Source: Acidobacteriota bacterium (GTDB taxonomy: Bacteria > Acidobacteriota > Polarisedimenticolia > J045). From it: a stretch of 36,413 bases of DNA. Numbering within the stretch: the stretch's first letter is position 1; every line of letters starts with the position of its first letter. The notes beneath the pieces were generated by a model that was not told the origin of the DNA, made no database searches, and saw only the letters and a program-made list of their open reading frames with translations. The stretch covers positions 1-36,413 of the forward strand of contig RFIB01000022.1 of assembly GCA_003695625.1 (NCBI GenBank), in the 5' to 3' direction. The translations under genes were made by a program, and so were the position numbers. Below, in pieces: positions 38 through 5,710 of the stretch.

Positions 38-439
38 GTGATGATCGGTTCGCCACGCTACTGGAGAGAAATTCCGCAGCGGTACCGCTACGAGGCGGCG
101 CGCTGCCGCAGCTGCGGCAAGATCCACTTCCCGCCCCGCGACGTGTGCTCCGCCTGCCGCGGTCGCGAGTTCGAGACCACGACGCTCGCGCAGCAGGGAA
201 CGATCGAGACCTTCACCGTGATCCACGTCGCGCCGTCCGGATTCGAGGACGAGGTCCCCTACGCGGTGGCGGTCGTCCGGCTTGACGACGGCGTCAAGAT
301 CACCGCCCAGGTCGTCGACTGCGATCCGGAGCAGCTCGAGATCGGCCAGCCGGTCCGGCTCGAGTTCCGCAAGGTGACCGAGGACGGCAAGTCGGGAATC
401 ATCTGCTACGGATACAAGTTCGTGCCGATCGCGTCCTAG
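38..439 (+). CDS. DUF35 Zn-ribbon / OB-fold acyl-CoA-associated protein
   Basis: This 133-residue protein has the two-part layout of the DUF35 family: an N-terminal rubredoxin-like zinc ribbon with two CxxC pairs (CRSCGK near residue 23 and CSACRG near residue 38), then an OB-fold (TIETFTVIHVAP onward). Family members bind acyl-CoA and act as partner or scaffold of thiolases and HMG-CoA synthases. The length fits the family. The start may be GTG 38 or ATG 41; the purine-rich GAGGGAG at 26-32 suits either. It probably forms an operon with the gene that ends at 21. The HMG-CoA reductase on the opposite strand at 2234-3781 fits a mevalonate-pathway setting, which is an inference. Confidence 0.85.
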   Translation: MMIGSPRYWREIPQRYRYEAARCRSCGKIHFPPRDVCSACRGREFETTTLAQQGTIETFTVIHVAPSGFEDEVPYAVAVVRLDDGVKITAQVVDCDPEQLEIGQPVRLEFRKVTEDGKSGIICYGYKFVPIAS

Positions 440-451
440 GCCGGGCGTCGG

Positions 452-2155
452 TCAGCGCTCACCGCGGCGCAACGCGAGTACGAGAGCGAGCAGGAACAGC
501 ACGGACCACGCCGGCCAGGGCCCGCCGGTCGTCAGCACGATCGCCCCCGAGACGAGACACGCCGCGGCGATCACGCTGCCGCGCAGACCCGCGAGCGGAT
601 TCTCCGGCGGTCGCCGCGTCGTCTTCTCGAGCACGCGCAGGCCCTCGGTCACCAGCAGCGGCGCCTTGACCATCGCGTCGAAGATCTCGGGCGCCACGCG
701 CACGCCCTCCCGCACCAGGCGCAGCGGGTTGAACTGCGTGAGAAACAGGCGCCGGATGTGGGGCGTCGAGACCTCGACCACGTCGAAGCCGGGCAGCAGC
801 AGGTGCCCCACACCTTCGTAGGTCACCAGCGCCTTGACCATCAGCACCATCTCGACGGGAAAGTACACACGGAACTGGGCGCCGGCGGCGAGCGACTCGA
901 GGATCATCCGGCCGATCGAGTACTCGCGGAAGCTGGCGTGCAGGCGCCAGCGACGGGAGATCTCCTCGACCTCGCGCCGGAACCCGTGTGGATCGGAGCC
1001 GGCCCCGATCTCGGCCGCGTTGGCCAGGAACCGGGCCGCGTTCTCCGCGTCGCCGGAGACCAGACTGAAGTAGTAGTAGAGCAGCAGCCGGCGCAGCTCC
1101 TCGTCGATGCGCCCGACCATGCCGAGATCGATGAATCCGACGCGGAGCCGACCGGTCTCCGGATCGCGAAGCACGAGCAGGTTGCCCGGGTGCAGGTCGG
1201 CGTGAAAGAAGCCGTCCTGGTACAGCATCCGCAGGATCGCCGCGGCTCCGAGGTCGATCAGCCGGCGCCGCTCGGCGAGCGACAGGCTCTCGGCGGCCGG
1301 CGCATCAGGCCGGAACCCGTCGAGAAACTCCATGCACAGCACGCGCTCGCCGCTGTAGGCGCGGAAGATCCGGGGAAACACGATGTCCGGCTCATCGCGG
1401 AAGTTCGCCGAGAACGTCTCCGCGTTGTCCGCCTCCCGGCGCAGGTCCACCTCGCGCAGGGTGTAGTCGCAGAACTCGTCGATGATCCGGCGCGGCTGGT
1501 AGCGCGGGAGGAACGCCTGCAGCAGCCGACCCGACAGCCGCAGCAGCACGGCATCCCGCTCGAGGATCTCGCGGATCCCCGGCTTGACGACCTTGACGAT
1601 CACCCGGTCGCCCTCGCGGGTGACCGCGCGGTGGGCCTGCGCGATCGACGCCGAGCCGATCGGCTCCGGCTCGATCTCGGCGAACATCTCGTCGACCGTC
1701 CGGCCCAGATCGTCCGCGATCACCTGCCGGATCACCGGAAACGGCACGGCCGGAAGCCTGTCGAGAAGATTCGCCAGCTCGCCGGTGATCGAGCGCGGCA
1801 GGATGTCCTCGCGCAGGCTCATGATCTGGCCGAGCTTGACGTAGGTCGGTCCCATCACCTCGAGTCGGCGGCGCAGCTGGACCGGGAACGGCTCGTTGCG
1901 GAACTCCCGGTCGACGAACGGCCTGACGAGGAACGCGAACACCGCCACGGCGCGGTATGTCCAGCCGCGATTGCGCCCCTCCTCCCGCCGGTGCCTGACC
2001 CAGGCGATCGCTCCGCCCAGCGCGAGACCGACCAGGTGCCGCTGCGTGACGAGGAAGCGGCGCACGATCCCCTGGCGCCGCGCGGCGCGAAGGGCGGCCT
2101 CGACGCCGGCATCGCGGACGTCGGCCGGACTCCTGGCGTCCGGAGATCTCGCCAT
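452..2155 (-). CDS. UbiB/ABC1 (AarF) family atypical kinase
   Basis: A 567-residue member of the UbiB/ABC1/ADCK family, membrane-linked ATPase/kinase-like proteins needed for ubiquinone or other prenyl-lipid metabolism. Counting from the GTG one codon upstream, the KxGQ signature is seen as KLGQ at 108-111, the Ala-rich loop as GSASIAQAH at 168-176, the ATP lysine as VIVKVVKPG near 187-194, the catalytic loop as HADLHPGN at 319-326 and the metal site as FIDLGM at 342-347. Two hydrophobic segments near the C-terminus (VIAAACLVSGAIVLTTGG and WSVLFLLALVLAL) look like the usual membrane hairpin. ATG 2155 is preferred because GGAAGG lies 5 bases upstream; GTG 2158 is possible. It converges with the DUF35 gene. 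The substrate is unknown; a link to isoprenoid lipids through the adjacent HMG-CoA reductase is inference. Confidence 0.92.
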   Translation of the reverse strand: MARSPDARSPADVRDAGVEAALRAARRQGIVRRFLVTQRHLVGLALGGAIAWVRHRREEGRNRGWTYRAVAVFAFLVRPFVDREFRNEPFPVQLRRRLEVMGPTYVKLGQIMSLREDILPRSITGELANLLDRLPAVPFPVIRQVIADDLGRTVDEMFAEIEPEPIGSASIAQAHRAVTREGDRVIVKVVKPGIREILERDAVLLRLSGRLLQAFLPRYQPRRIIDEFCDYTLREVDLRREADNAETFSANFRDEPDIVFPRIFRAYSGERVLCMEFLDGFRPDAPAAESLSLAERRRLIDLGAAAILRMLYQDGFFHADLHPGNLLVLRDPETGRLRVGFIDLGMVGRIDEELRRLLLYYYFSLVSGDAENAARFLANAAEIGAGSDPHGFRREVEEISRRWRLHASFREYSIGRMILESLAAGAQFRVYFPVEMVLMVKALVTYEGVGHLLLPGFDVVEVSTPHIRRLFLTQFNPLRLVREGVRVAPEIFDAMVKAPLLVTEGLRVLEKTTRRPPENPLAGLRGSVIAAACLVSGAIVLTTGGPWPAWSVLFLLALVLALRRGER

Positions 2156-2233
2156 CACCCCTTCCGTCGGCGGGCGCGCGGGCCGGCCCCGCAGCCGGGA
2201 CCCGCTCCGCGCGCTCCGGAACGTCGGATGATA

Positions 2234-3781
2234 TCAGCGGTTACGACCGTACTCCTCGTGGCTGGACACCCAGTCGAGCGAGGAGATCGCGGCCCCGAGC
2301 GACAGCTCACCCGCCAGCGCGACGCCGGCGACGATCTCGGCCAGCTTGCGCACCTTGCCCTTGCCCCAGCACCCGAGCACCTCGAGACACTCGCGCTGGG
2401 TCGGCAGGCCGGTCCCCCCCCCGTAGGTGGCCACGATCAGCGACGGGATCGTCAGCGACATGTAGAAGTCGCCCTCCGCGGTCAGCTCGCTGTAGAAGAT
2501 CCCCGCCGAACTCTCCGAGACATTGGCCACGTCCTGGCCGGTGGCGATGAACATCGCCGTGATGGCGTTGGGCGAGTGGGCGCCGTTGTTGTTCGCGCCG
2601 GAGAGGATCGAGCCGACGTTGGCAACCTGGTTGTGGTAGACCAGCGCTTCCGGCTCGACGCGCATGTGCTGGACGAGCAGTTCGCGCTTGATCGTCGCCT
2701 CGGCGGTGACCCGCTTGCCCCGCGTCCGCATCACGTTGACCTGGGACGCCTTCTTGTCCGTCGCCAGGTTCGATTCGAGGAAGAACCGGCGCACCGACTT
2801 GTTGTTGTCGAGGATCCAGCTGCATGCAGCGAACGTCGCCCGGCCGACCATGTTCTGGCCGGCCGCGTCCCCCGTGGAGAAGTTGAACCGCAGGTAGGCG
2901 AACTTGCTGGCCAGGAACGTGTCGATGAACAGCAGTTTGCCGACGCTGGTCGTCGCCTCGGCAGCCTCGCGGATCGGCTCGATGTTCTCGTTGACCCAGT
3001 CACGGAACGCGCGCGCCTCGCGGGCCGAGTCGAACACGAACACCGGAGCCCGCTGCATGCAGTCGTCCTGCACCGTGCAGCGCACGCCGCCGCTGAGATT
3101 GACCACCTTGATGCCGCGGTTGTAGGAGGCGACGAGCGTGCCCTCGGTCGTCGCCAGCGGGATCAGGAATTCGCCCTGCGCGTGCTCGCCGTTCACGAGC
3201 AGCGGCCCGGCGAATCCGATCGGGATCTGCGCCACGCCGGTGAACGCCTCGATGTTGCCCCGCGTCAGCTCGGGATCGAACGAGTACTTGTCGAGGTGCC
3301 GGAACTTGACACCGGAGAACTTCTCGACGAACGCCCGGCGCTCGCGGATCACTTCCTCCGCGTAGTCGTTGTCCTTCGAGTACGGAATCCGCGTGCGCTG
3401 CTCGCGCTCCTCGACCAGCCCGTCCTTGACGCTGAACCGCAGCCGGCCGAACGGTTCCGCATCGACGTCGAAGGCCAGTTCGTGCTGTCCCTGCTCGAGC
3501 CGGGTCCCGGCGACGTGGAGCTGCAGCCGCTCGCGCAGCGGAAACGGCAGCGGGCCGTCCTGCTCGAGCTCCGCGGGCGACATGCGACGTCCGTCGGACA
3601 GCTCGATCGCGACGCGGTCGAGGGGGATCTCCTCACCGTCGATGCGCAGAGCGCGGATGCGGCGCAGGCGGGCGTCCGAGAGCCGGTTCTTCAGCGCGAA
3701 CGTCACGCCGTTGCCGGTGTTCTCCAGGCTGCCGAACGTGTAGAGCTGGCGGAGGATCAGCGAGGGGATCTTCATGAACAT
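2234..3781 (-). CDS. Class I HMG-CoA reductase with an extra N-terminal beta-rich domain
   Basis: This 515-residue enzyme should reduce HMG-CoA to mevalonate, the committed step of the mevalonate route to isoprenoids. Catalytic motifs are complete: ATTEG with Glu213, GDAAGQNM at 304-311, TDKK with Lys343, GQDVA with Asp417 and the C-terminal His508 in SSHEE. TDKK and the GGGTGLPTQ segment mark the class I (eukaryotic/archaeal) type rather than the class II type of many bacteria. Residues 1 to about 130 are not part of a normal reductase; they resemble the DUF6379/C-glycoside deglycosidase beta-subunit pattern (RIDGEEIP at 46-53, then a glycine-His-Glu strand). No membrane or sterol-sensing segments are present. 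Start ATG 3781 is chosen because the promoter at 3829-3857 would put an upstream GTG at 3817 almost on the transcription start; ATG 3775 is another option. Confidence 0.93.
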   Translation of the reverse strand: MFMKIPSLILRQLYTFGSLENTGNGVTFALKNRLSDARLRRIRALRIDGEEIPLDRVAIELSDGRRMSPAELEQDGPLPFPLRERLQLHVAGTRLEQGQHELAFDVDAEPFGRLRFSVKDGLVEEREQRTRIPYSKDNDYAEEVIRERRAFVEKFSGVKFRHLDKYSFDPELTRGNIEAFTGVAQIPIGFAGPLLVNGEHAQGEFLIPLATTEGTLVASYNRGIKVVNLSGGVRCTVQDDCMQRAPVFVFDSAREARAFRDWVNENIEPIREAAEATTSVGKLLFIDTFLASKFAYLRFNFSTGDAAGQNMVGRATFAACSWILDNNKSVRRFFLESNLATDKKASQVNVMRTRGKRVTAEATIKRELLVQHMRVEPEALVYHNQVANVGSILSGANNNGAHSPNAITAMFIATGQDVANVSESSAGIFYSELTAEGDFYMSLTIPSLIVATYGGGTGLPTQRECLEVLGCWGKGKVRKLAEIVAGVALAGELSLGAAISSLDWVSSHEEYGRNR

Positions 3782-3828
3782 CGTGTGCCCGTCCTGGCGC
3801 CCCGCGGGCGGGAGCACCGCAGGCGGGC

Positions 3829-3857
3829 TTTATACGCCCCGGCCGGCCGGTAATCAA
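3829..3857 (-). promoter_or_regulatory. Sigma-70 type promoter of the HMG-CoA reductase gene
   Basis: Reading the minus strand, TTGATT (3857-3852) and TATAAA (3834-3829) are separated by exactly 17 bases. Both boxes are AT-rich islands in very GC-rich DNA. Transcription would start near 3822, giving a leader of about 40 bases to ATG 3781. Confidence 0.65.
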
Positions 3858-4009
3858 AGACTGGCCCCCCGCGGCCGCTCCGCTGACCCGGGTCAGCGCC
3901 GGCCGTTCCGCTGCGGCTGGGCAGCGCGCCCGGCGCGGGCGATGATGTTCGCTGGATCAGGACGCCGGGCGCCGCGCCGGACCGCGGACCCGGCAAAGGA
4001 GTCGCCACG

Positions 4010-5710
4010 GTGAGCGAGAGCGCTGTCGAGACCCGCCTGCTCGATGCCGCCGCGCAGGAACTCGCGGCCCGGCGCGAGGCGTGGCGCCGGGTCGATGTCG
4101 ACGAACGGATCGCCCTGATCGACGAGCTGTCGCGCGGCTTCGCGCGCATCGCGGCACGATGGGCCGAGTCCGTGCTCGAGCTCGAGGGTCTCGATCCCGA
4201 GCGCCCGGAGGCCGGCGAGGAGTGGCTCGTCGGCCCCTATCTCGTGCTGCGCTATCTGCACTGCCTGCGACGGGCGCTCGTCGGCGTGCGCGACACCGGC
4301 CGGCCGAGGATTCCGGGGCCGATCACGACCCGGCCGGACGGGCAGGTCGTCGCCCGCGTGTTCCCGGAGACCATCTGGGACCGGCTGTTCTACCCGGGCG
4401 TCGCCGCCGAGGTGTGGATGCACCCTCACGTCACTCTCGACGACCTGCCGCGCACCCAGGCGCGCTGCTATCACGACCTCGAGTCTCCGGGGCGGACCTG
4501 TCTCGTGCTCGGCGGCGGGAACGTCTCGTCGATCGGCCCGCTCGACGCGCTGACCAAGCTGTTCCTCGACGACCGCGTCGTGCTGTTCAAGCTGCACCCG
4601 GTCAACAGTTTTCTCGCGCCGCTGTTCGAGGAGGCGATGGCGCCGCTGATCGACCGCGGCTTCCTGCGCATCGTCGTCGGCGGTGTGGCCGAGGGTGCGC
4701 ATCTGTGCCGGCATCCGCTCGTCGACGAGATCCACGTCACCGGCGCGGAGGAGACGTACCTCGCGATCGTGTTCGGCACCGGGGAGGACGGTGCGCGGCG
4801 GCGCGCCGAAGGGCGGCCGCTGATCGAGAAGCCGGTCACCGGCGAACTCGGGAACGTCTCGCCGGTGCTCGTCGTCCCCGGGGCCTGGTCACGCCGCGAC
4901 CTCGCCTACCAGGCGACGAACATCGTGTCGATGCTGGTCAACAACGCCGGGTTCAACTGCAACGCGGCCCGCGTCATCGTGCAGCATGCGGGCTGGAGCG
5001 GACGGTCGGCGCTGCTCGACGCGATCCGGCATCGTCTCGCCGCGACGCCGACGCGCCGCGCGTACTACCCCGGCGCGTTCGAGCGCCACAGGACGTTCGT
5101 CGAGGCGCATCCGGAGGCCGAGCGGTTCGGCGACCCCGCGTCCGACGAGCTGCCGTGGACGCTGATCCCCGGCGTGCCGTCCGACGCACGCGACGAGATC
5201 TGCTTCGAGGTCGAGGCGTTCTGCGGCCTCGTTGCCGAGACGACCCTCGAGGCGCCGGACGTGGAGAGCTATCTGCAGCGCGCGGTCGCGTTCTGCAACG
5301 ACACGCTCTACGGATCGCTCAACGTGACGCTGGTGGTCGACCGCGAGACCGCACGACACCCGCGGCTCGGACGGGCGGTCGAACGCGCGGTCGCCGACCT
5401 GCGCTACGGGACGGTGTGCGTCAACCACTGGGCCGCGCTCGGCTTCGCGCTCGGCATCACGCCGTGGGGCGCCTATCCCGGCAACGAGCCGCACGCGCCG
5501 GGCTCGGGAATCGGCGTCGTCCACAACGCGCTGATGTTCGAGGAGGTCGAGAAGGCGGTGATCAGGACGCGCTTCCGGGCGTTCCCCTACCCGCCGTGGT
5601 TCGTCGACCATCGCAGTGCCCACCGGCTGTGCGCCGAACTGACCGAGTTCGAGGCCCGTCCGTCGTGGGCGCGACTTCCGCGGGTGACCTGGCACGCGCT
5701 GCGGGCCTAG
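4010..5710 (+). CDS. Aldehyde dehydrogenase family protein, divergent member
   Basis: A 566-residue protein of the NAD(P)-dependent aldehyde dehydrogenase superfamily, which oxidises aldehydes or acyl groups through a cysteine thioester. The catalytic Cys317 lies in NNAGFNCNAAR, the general-base Glu279 in TGELGNVSP, the cofactor-binding lysine in VLFKLHPVNS (Lys194) and the turn around the cofactor in HVTGAEE (243-247). These motifs depart from the usual GQxC and ELGGK forms, and the protein is about 70 residues longer than typical members. GTG 4010 is supported by AAGGAG at 3996-4001, 8 bases away. Its stop codon overlaps the stop of the converging HAD gene in one CTAG. The substrate cannot be told; lipid or isoprenoid aldehydes are possible given the neighbours. 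Confidence 0.82.
   Translation: MSESAVETRLLDAAAQELAARREAWRRVDVDERIALIDELSRGFARIAARWAESVLELEGLDPERPEAGEEWLVGPYLVLRYLHCLRRALVGVRDTGRPRIPGPITTRPDGQVVARVFPETIWDRLFYPGVAAEVWMHPHVTLDDLPRTQARCYHDLESPGRTCLVLGGGNVSSIGPLDALTKLFLDDRVVLFKLHPVNSFLAPLFEEAMAPLIDRGFLRIVVGGVAEGAHLCRHPLVDEIHVTGAEETYLAIVFGTGEDGARRRAEGRPLIEKPVTGELGNVSPVLVVPGAWSRRDLAYQATNIVSMLVNNAGFNCNAARVIVQHAGWSGRSALLDAIRHRLAATPTRRAYYPGAFERHRTFVEAHPEAERFGDPASDELPWTLIPGVPSDARDEICFEVEAFCGLVAETTLEAPDVESYLQRAVAFCNDTLYGSLNVTLVVDRETARHPRLGRAVERAVADLRYGTVCVNHWAALGFALGITPWGAYPGNEPHAPGSGIGVVHNALMFEEVEKAVIRTRFRAFPYPPWFVDHRSAHRLCAELTEFEARPSWARLPRVTWHALRA

Follow-up and report, generated by a model that had tools for sequence, protein, structure and literature searches.

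Gene locus and domain architecture

The window, the whole analysed stretch of 36,413 nucleotides from an Acidobacteriota genome (contig RFIB01000022.1), carries on its minus strand a gene that runs from an ATG at position 3781 to a stop at 2234 and encodes a protein of 515 amino acids (N-terminus MFMKIPSLIL). An in-frame GTG at 3817 is an alternative start and leads to a form of 527 amino acids, in which two Pfam domains were found: PF25653 (HMG-CoA_red_N, E=3.1e-37) at residues 21–133 and PF00368 (E=4.6e-125) at residues 157–525, corresponding to residues 145–513 of the 515-residue protein. The shorter form thus divides into an N-terminal domain predicted to be a beta sandwich (residues 1–122, 3416..3781, minus strand), a low-confidence linker (residues 123–144, 3350..3415, minus strand; pLDDT <50 across most of 127–144 in the domain model) and a class I HMG-CoA reductase (HMGR)-type domain (residues 145–513, 2243..3349, minus strand).

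This architecture is already known. FcrA, an HMGR-like reductase of bacteria and archaea, was described to convert long-chain acyl-CoA to fatty alcohol for wax esters, and an extra N-terminal domain in certain FcrA proteins was named Lad and called 'as yet undescribed' (Grossi et al., ISME J 2025, PMC11948995). By this description, the all-beta PF25653 domain of the window protein was equated with Lad. The fusion, which the original prediction had taken as something not known before, is therefore published for FcrA (PMC11948995), and its N-terminal domain had already entered Pfam under another name.

In GTDB genomes (about 60 genomes), 63 relatives were identified, mostly full length and with 62–71% identity, from Acidobacteriota, Chloroflexota, Bacteroidota/Rhodothermota, Planctomycetota and others; none was found in viral contigs. 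A homologue from Promineifilum sp., the genus of the experimentally assayed enzyme, shares 67% identity with the window protein. The original prediction had placed the start of the reductase core well inside the chain, behind a separate beta-rich unit, and proposed a survey for the same N-terminus. Both features are real: by Pfam the core begins about 145 residues in, and the unit in front of it is a second Pfam domain that folds independently in an AlphaFold2 model and is kept across phyla. The landmarks GVTFAL, RIDGEEIP, the acidic helix and EQGQHEL are all present and align family-wide. Since the identical architecture recurs in about 60 genomes, 14 columns of the N-terminal domain are invariant in an alignment of 40 sequences and the domain has a modelled fold of its own, the N-terminal unit is neither a chance feature nor a start-site artefact.

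One genome (G087) carries two Lad-reductases (C97 and C304; loci L074 and L065). In another (G053), the gene is split into two pieces 1.6 Mb apart (C1:636751–637434, plus strand, and 2251554–2252375, minus strand), the first piece (in locus L103) coding for Lad plus the beginning of the core and the second, on the opposite strand, for the remainder, reflecting either an inversion or a misassembly.

The N-terminal Lad domain

Modelled alone by AlphaFold2 from the 40-sequence alignment, the N-terminal domain formed an all-beta unit with short helices (pLDDT 84.5, core >90). A Foldseek search against the PDB gave 17 matches with E<=0.001, every one a C-glycoside deglycosidase (CGD) structure, with 8qvc_B on top (E=2.9e-7) and 9m3b_B, 8umc_B, 7bvr_B and 7dre_B among the others. 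VIA-align 2 superposed the model on 7drd_B with a Z score of 14.4 and an rmsd of 2.5 over 116 residues; among the matches listed, Z ranged from 11.7 to 14.4 for CGD entries and was 8.7 for the first unrelated fold. At the profile level, hhalign aligned Lad with six CGDB sequences at 95.8% over 82 columns (E=7e-9, a pairwise value uncorrected for database size), bringing RIDGEEIP and EQGQHEL into register with VDGEKFE and PLGIHDV. Matches to polyubiquitin in a PDB profile search were discarded as a weak match summed over repeats. The DUF6379/CGDB-type fold that had been proposed from the sequence is borne out by these structural and profile comparisons, and, judged on its model, Lad adopts the fold of the CGD beta subunit (DUF6379/CGDB, PF19906).

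Whether this likeness goes back to a common ancestor was considered separately. Lad and CGD beta share only 14–21% sequence identity, and the window domain by itself matches PF19906 with 16.5 bits (E=0.0076), below the Pfam gathering cut-off of 27.6 bits. Both values would suit a reading in which Lad is a structural or oligomerisation add-on that binds no ligand and resembles CGD beta as a convergent beta sandwich. However, PF19906 matches occur in 21 of the 40 family members (E up to 1), the best with E=6.7e-6, and this value, together with the gap of about 3 Z units to the first unrelated fold, the full-length coverage and the in-register profile match, makes convergence rather unlikely and shared ancestry of Lad and CGDB likely, though not proven. 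No PF19906 match was found in the window's genome, and in place of the TIM-barrel alpha subunit with which CGD beta pairs, an HMGR-type reductase is fused to the domain. In the literature searched, no earlier mention of a relation between Lad and CGD beta was found. The earlier suggestion that the domain might bind a lipid agrees with the hydrophobic pocket of Lad in the published AlphaFold 3 model, in which a long alkyl chain was placed inside (PMC11948995).

The reductase core

All catalytic residues of HMGR are kept in the core as E213, K343, D417 and H508 (Glu559, Lys691, Asp767 and His866 in human numbering). The substrate pocket is changed. For FcrA, replacements were described at Ser684, at a lysine printed as 795 and at Leu862 (PMC11948995), and the printed Lys795 corresponds to Lys735 in the present alignment. 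All three substitutions are found in the window protein, namely E336 (S684E), A387 (K735A) and W504 (L862W), and they extend to the whole alignment, with Glu at 684 in 40/40, Trp at 862 in 40/40 and Ala, Ser or Gly at 735 in 40/40 sequences. By comparison, Ser684, Lys735 and Leu862 are found in human, plant, archaeal and one bacterial canonical HMGR, the pocket being judged against class I references alone. Paralogues first taken as 'canonical' were left out of this judgement, as most of them are class II enzymes.

In a FastTree phylogeny built on a small taxon set with a class II outgroup, the 40 Lad-reductases formed a clade (support 0.86; 1.0 together with locus L075), and canonical class I enzymes lay outside. 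The HMG-CoA reductase model TIGR00533 scored 358 bits, under its equivalog cut-off of 441.8. L075 (G024:C91:12300-13600) encodes a 425-residue FcrA-like reductase without Lad, in a Flavobacteriales genome that also has a Lad-reductase beside it. With Glu684, Ser735 and Phe862 in its pocket and a position beside the Lad-reductases in the tree, this protein probably represents a Lad-less FcrA and no longer counts against the argument from the pocket.

The assayed FcrA, from Promineifilum breve, used NADPH and long-chain acyl-CoA, did not reduce HMG-CoA and was not inhibited by simvastatin (PMC11948995). Membership of the window protein in the FcrA family is well supported by its sequence. The label HMG-CoA reductase in the original prediction does not hold: the altered pocket, the separate clade and the presence of DXR in the genome all fit FcrA.

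Isoprenoid route and wax ester synthesis

FcrA was reported from genomes without a mevalonate pathway (PMC11948995). The window genome contains DXR, WS/DGAT and a single HMGR-family gene. Its mevalonate pathway was judged by the markers DXR, mevalonate-PP decarboxylase and HMG-CoA synthase (HMGS), of which DXR and HMGS are present; neither a second HMGR nor mevalonate-PP decarboxylase was detected in this genome, and by these markers no mevalonate pathway is made out. HMG-CoA_synt_N (PF01154) was rejected as a mevalonate marker, because genomes with class II HMGR carry an archaeal-type HMGS that it does not detect, and it is thus not diagnostic. Across the family, genomes with a Lad-reductase as the sole HMGR-family gene had DXR in 19/20 and detectable mevalonate-PP decarboxylase in 0/20, where absence was called by a first-look filter from genomes that are incomplete. 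In contrast, clear DXR was found in 1/31 genomes with an additional HMGR (p=8e-12 against 19/20, the genomes not being independent), and this additional enzyme looks class II in six aligned Chloroflexota paralogues. The Lad-reductase does not track the isoprenoid route. Taken together with the replaced HMG-carboxylate residues, this distribution speaks against an isoprenoid HMGR.

An argument for a true HMG-CoA reductase comes from the edge of the window. A gene for a DUF35/ChsH2-type Zn-ribbon/OB-fold protein (PF01796, PF12172) lies at 38..439 on the plus strand, and its start is duplicated on another contig of the genome, C368, the final 201 bases of which match positions 1–201 of the window at 98%. 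Besides PhaR, two phasins and a patatin, C368 encodes an archaeal-type HMGS (TIGR00748, 539 bits) and a thiolase and ends in the DUF35/ChsH2 gene; the stretch with HMGS, thiolase and DUF35 lies at 3447-5686 of locus L096 (G000:C368) and overlaps positions 1–201 of the window. The cell may therefore make HMG-CoA, which an enzyme with reductase fold and intact catalytic residues could reduce to mevalonate for isoprenoids or other uses. However, 20 relatives encode a close HMGS homologue while lacking any HMGR-family gene, so the HMGS is not bound to supply a reductase, and among the nine Lad-reductase relatives a close HMGS is confined to the window genome. The archaeal-type HMGS was thus ruled out as a sign of HMG-CoA reduction at this locus, and the one on C368 probably serves another route. 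Together with the replaced carboxylate residues, the sub-threshold TIGR00533 score, the DXR route and the failure of assayed FcrA to reduce HMG-CoA (PMC11948995), this makes a true HMG-CoA reductase very improbable.

A connection to wax esters was seen in the distribution of WS/DGAT, which is enriched among Lad-reductase carriers (37/58 vs 2/21, p=2e-5; G083 and G005, apparently one genome, were counted once) and lies physically near the reductase in three genomes (G002, G034 and G104). It is absent from many family genomes, including Bacteroidota outside Rhodothermota, and products other than wax esters are therefore likely in some carriers.

Neighbouring genes and the ABC1/UbiB kinase

Divergent to the reductase, a gene with weak similarity to aldehyde dehydrogenases (PF00171, 33 bits) lies at 4010..5707 on the plus strand, and in two relatives (L070 and L072) its homologues occupy an upstream position on the opposite strand. 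Elsewhere, the reductase is accompanied by an acyl-CoA ligase and WS/DGAT (L003) or by an aldehyde dehydrogenase and a GMC oxidoreductase (L059). Patatin, phasin and PhaR genes recur near Lad-reductases (L102, L107, L097, L011, L002 and L005), which suggests a neutral-lipid or PHA-granule setting. Bacteroidota loci (L042, L025, L038, L039, L049, L054 and L063) share a short phasin-like gene, a distant ABC1 kinase and DUF445 with the Lad-reductase, and DUF445 is also present at L059.

Immediately downstream of the reductase, at a distance of 75 bases and on the same strand, lies a gene for an ABC1/UbiB-family atypical kinase of 568 amino acids (455..2158, minus strand; PF03109, E=3.5e-64). Its score against the UbiB model TIGR01982 was 322 bits, under the equivalog cut-off of 488. 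Homologues of the same subfamily (50–63% identity, >500 bits) are neighbours of the reductase, adjacent to it or close by, in genomes of Acidobacteriota type and in one genome each of Planctomycetota and Rhodothermales. Among 60 relatives, the window genome included, the subfamily was present in 9/9 genomes with a Lad domain and 0/51 without (Fisher p=7e-11, a guide value, as the genomes are related and some incomplete), and this co-occurrence did not depend on proximity, as it held in G052, G053 and G070, where a long distance separates the two genes. The subfamily also occurs in Salinibacter-type genomes and was not found in the Chloroflexota searched; in several Bacteroidota, the ABC1 gene close to the reductase is a different and more distant one.

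The kinase subfamily is probably a partner of the Lad-reductase. This association is absent from the FcrA paper, which mentions neither ABC1 kinases nor phasins nor the CGD-beta fold (PMC11948995), and no earlier report of it was found in the literature searched. In plastids, the lipid droplets known as plastoglobules contain ABC1 kinases among their core proteins (PMC4915526), and by analogy one might speculate about a plastoglobule-like lipid-body role for the window kinase. In the literature searched, nothing further was found on ABC1 kinases with wax esters or on FcrA after the 2025 paper.

Proposed function

The DXR/mevalonate pattern, the replaced HMG-carboxylate residues and the neutral-lipid neighbours point to a fatty acyl-CoA reductase. 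Very probably, the window protein is an NADPH-dependent FcrA of class I HMGR descent that makes fatty alcohol; Lad would be a hydrophobic-ligand module. The enzyme would reduce a long-chain acyl-CoA thioester to the fatty alcohol in a four-electron reduction, for wax esters or alkyl lipids, and the reaction chemistry of HMGR would be retained via Glu, Lys, Asp and His. In the altered carboxylate pocket, a linear acyl chain is expected to fit and HMG-CoA is not. Lad, on a flexible linker, may present the alkyl chain to the reductase or carry it to and from the active site, and the low-confidence linker of the model would permit such movement. This role is suggested by the CGD beta subunit, which supplies substrate-binding residues to the active site of its partner, and by the pocket modelled by Grossi et al. 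(PMC11948995). The reaction itself was shown by others for the P. breve enzyme; for this organism, reaction and Lad role are inferred.

A different thioester, such as a hydroxyacyl-, branched or diacid acyl-CoA, might be reduced instead, giving diols or alcohols for ether or membrane lipids and not for wax esters. The many carriers without WS/DGAT, the phasin and PhaR neighbours reminiscent of PHA granules and the ether-lipid roles proposed by the FcrA authors for some members (PMC11948995) would agree with such a substrate. However, the identity of 62–71% across phyla and the invariant active-site columns suggest a single shared substrate class, and WS/DGAT, enriched among carriers, is also encoded in this genome, so this alternative has perhaps a minor chance next to the long-chain acyl-CoA reading.

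More tentatively, and with a somewhat less than even chance, Lad and CGD beta could form one superfamily of substrate-presenting beta-sandwich modules that was captured by a metal-dependent sugar lyase on one side and an NADPH reductase on the other, and Lad-FcrA could work with a dedicated ABC1/UbiB kinase that acts on the part of fatty alcohol and wax ester formation taking place at the membrane or lipid body.

The enzyme family as such is already known as FcrA, and in the literature searched the new parts are the fold relation of Lad and the candidate kinase partner. A misleading annotation can be corrected, in that carriers of the Pfam 'HMG-CoA reductase N-terminal' domain fit FcrA and not mevalonate synthesis. 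The orphan Lad is placed in a structural family from which ligand-bound structures have been solved, so that its role can be tested, and a specific subfamily of the ABC1 kinases, a group with poorly known substrates, is flagged as a probable partner in bacterial fatty alcohol metabolism.

Comparison with known systems

With FcrA, the window protein shares the N-terminal domain and class I HMGR core, the catalytic set, the three pocket substitutions, the types of carrier organisms (Ca. Promineifilum being the assayed one) and the presence in genomes that lack the mevalonate pathway, and no difference was found in the protein when compared by the residue criteria and description of the paper. 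Canonical class I HMGR (6hr7, human 2q1l) has the same core fold, the Glu/Lys/Asp/His set and the C-terminal His helix, but lacks Lad, keeps Ser684, Lys735 and Leu862 and reduces HMG-CoA. The likeness of Lad to CGDB (PF19906, DUF6379; DgpB, DfgB, AgCarC2) covers the beta sandwich over the whole domain, the order and register of strands and a Leu-x-x-Gly-x-His motif ahead of a late strand. Whereas CGDB stands as a subunit by itself, or is joined to the sugar-isomerase-like portion in a longer chain (8qrz, 435 amino acids), and acts on glycosides, Lad is fused to a reductase, has low identity to CGDB and scores under the Pfam cut-off. With UbiB/ABC1 kinases, the neighbouring kinase has PF03109 in common, and within them it belongs to a subfamily of its own that is found with Lad-reductases.
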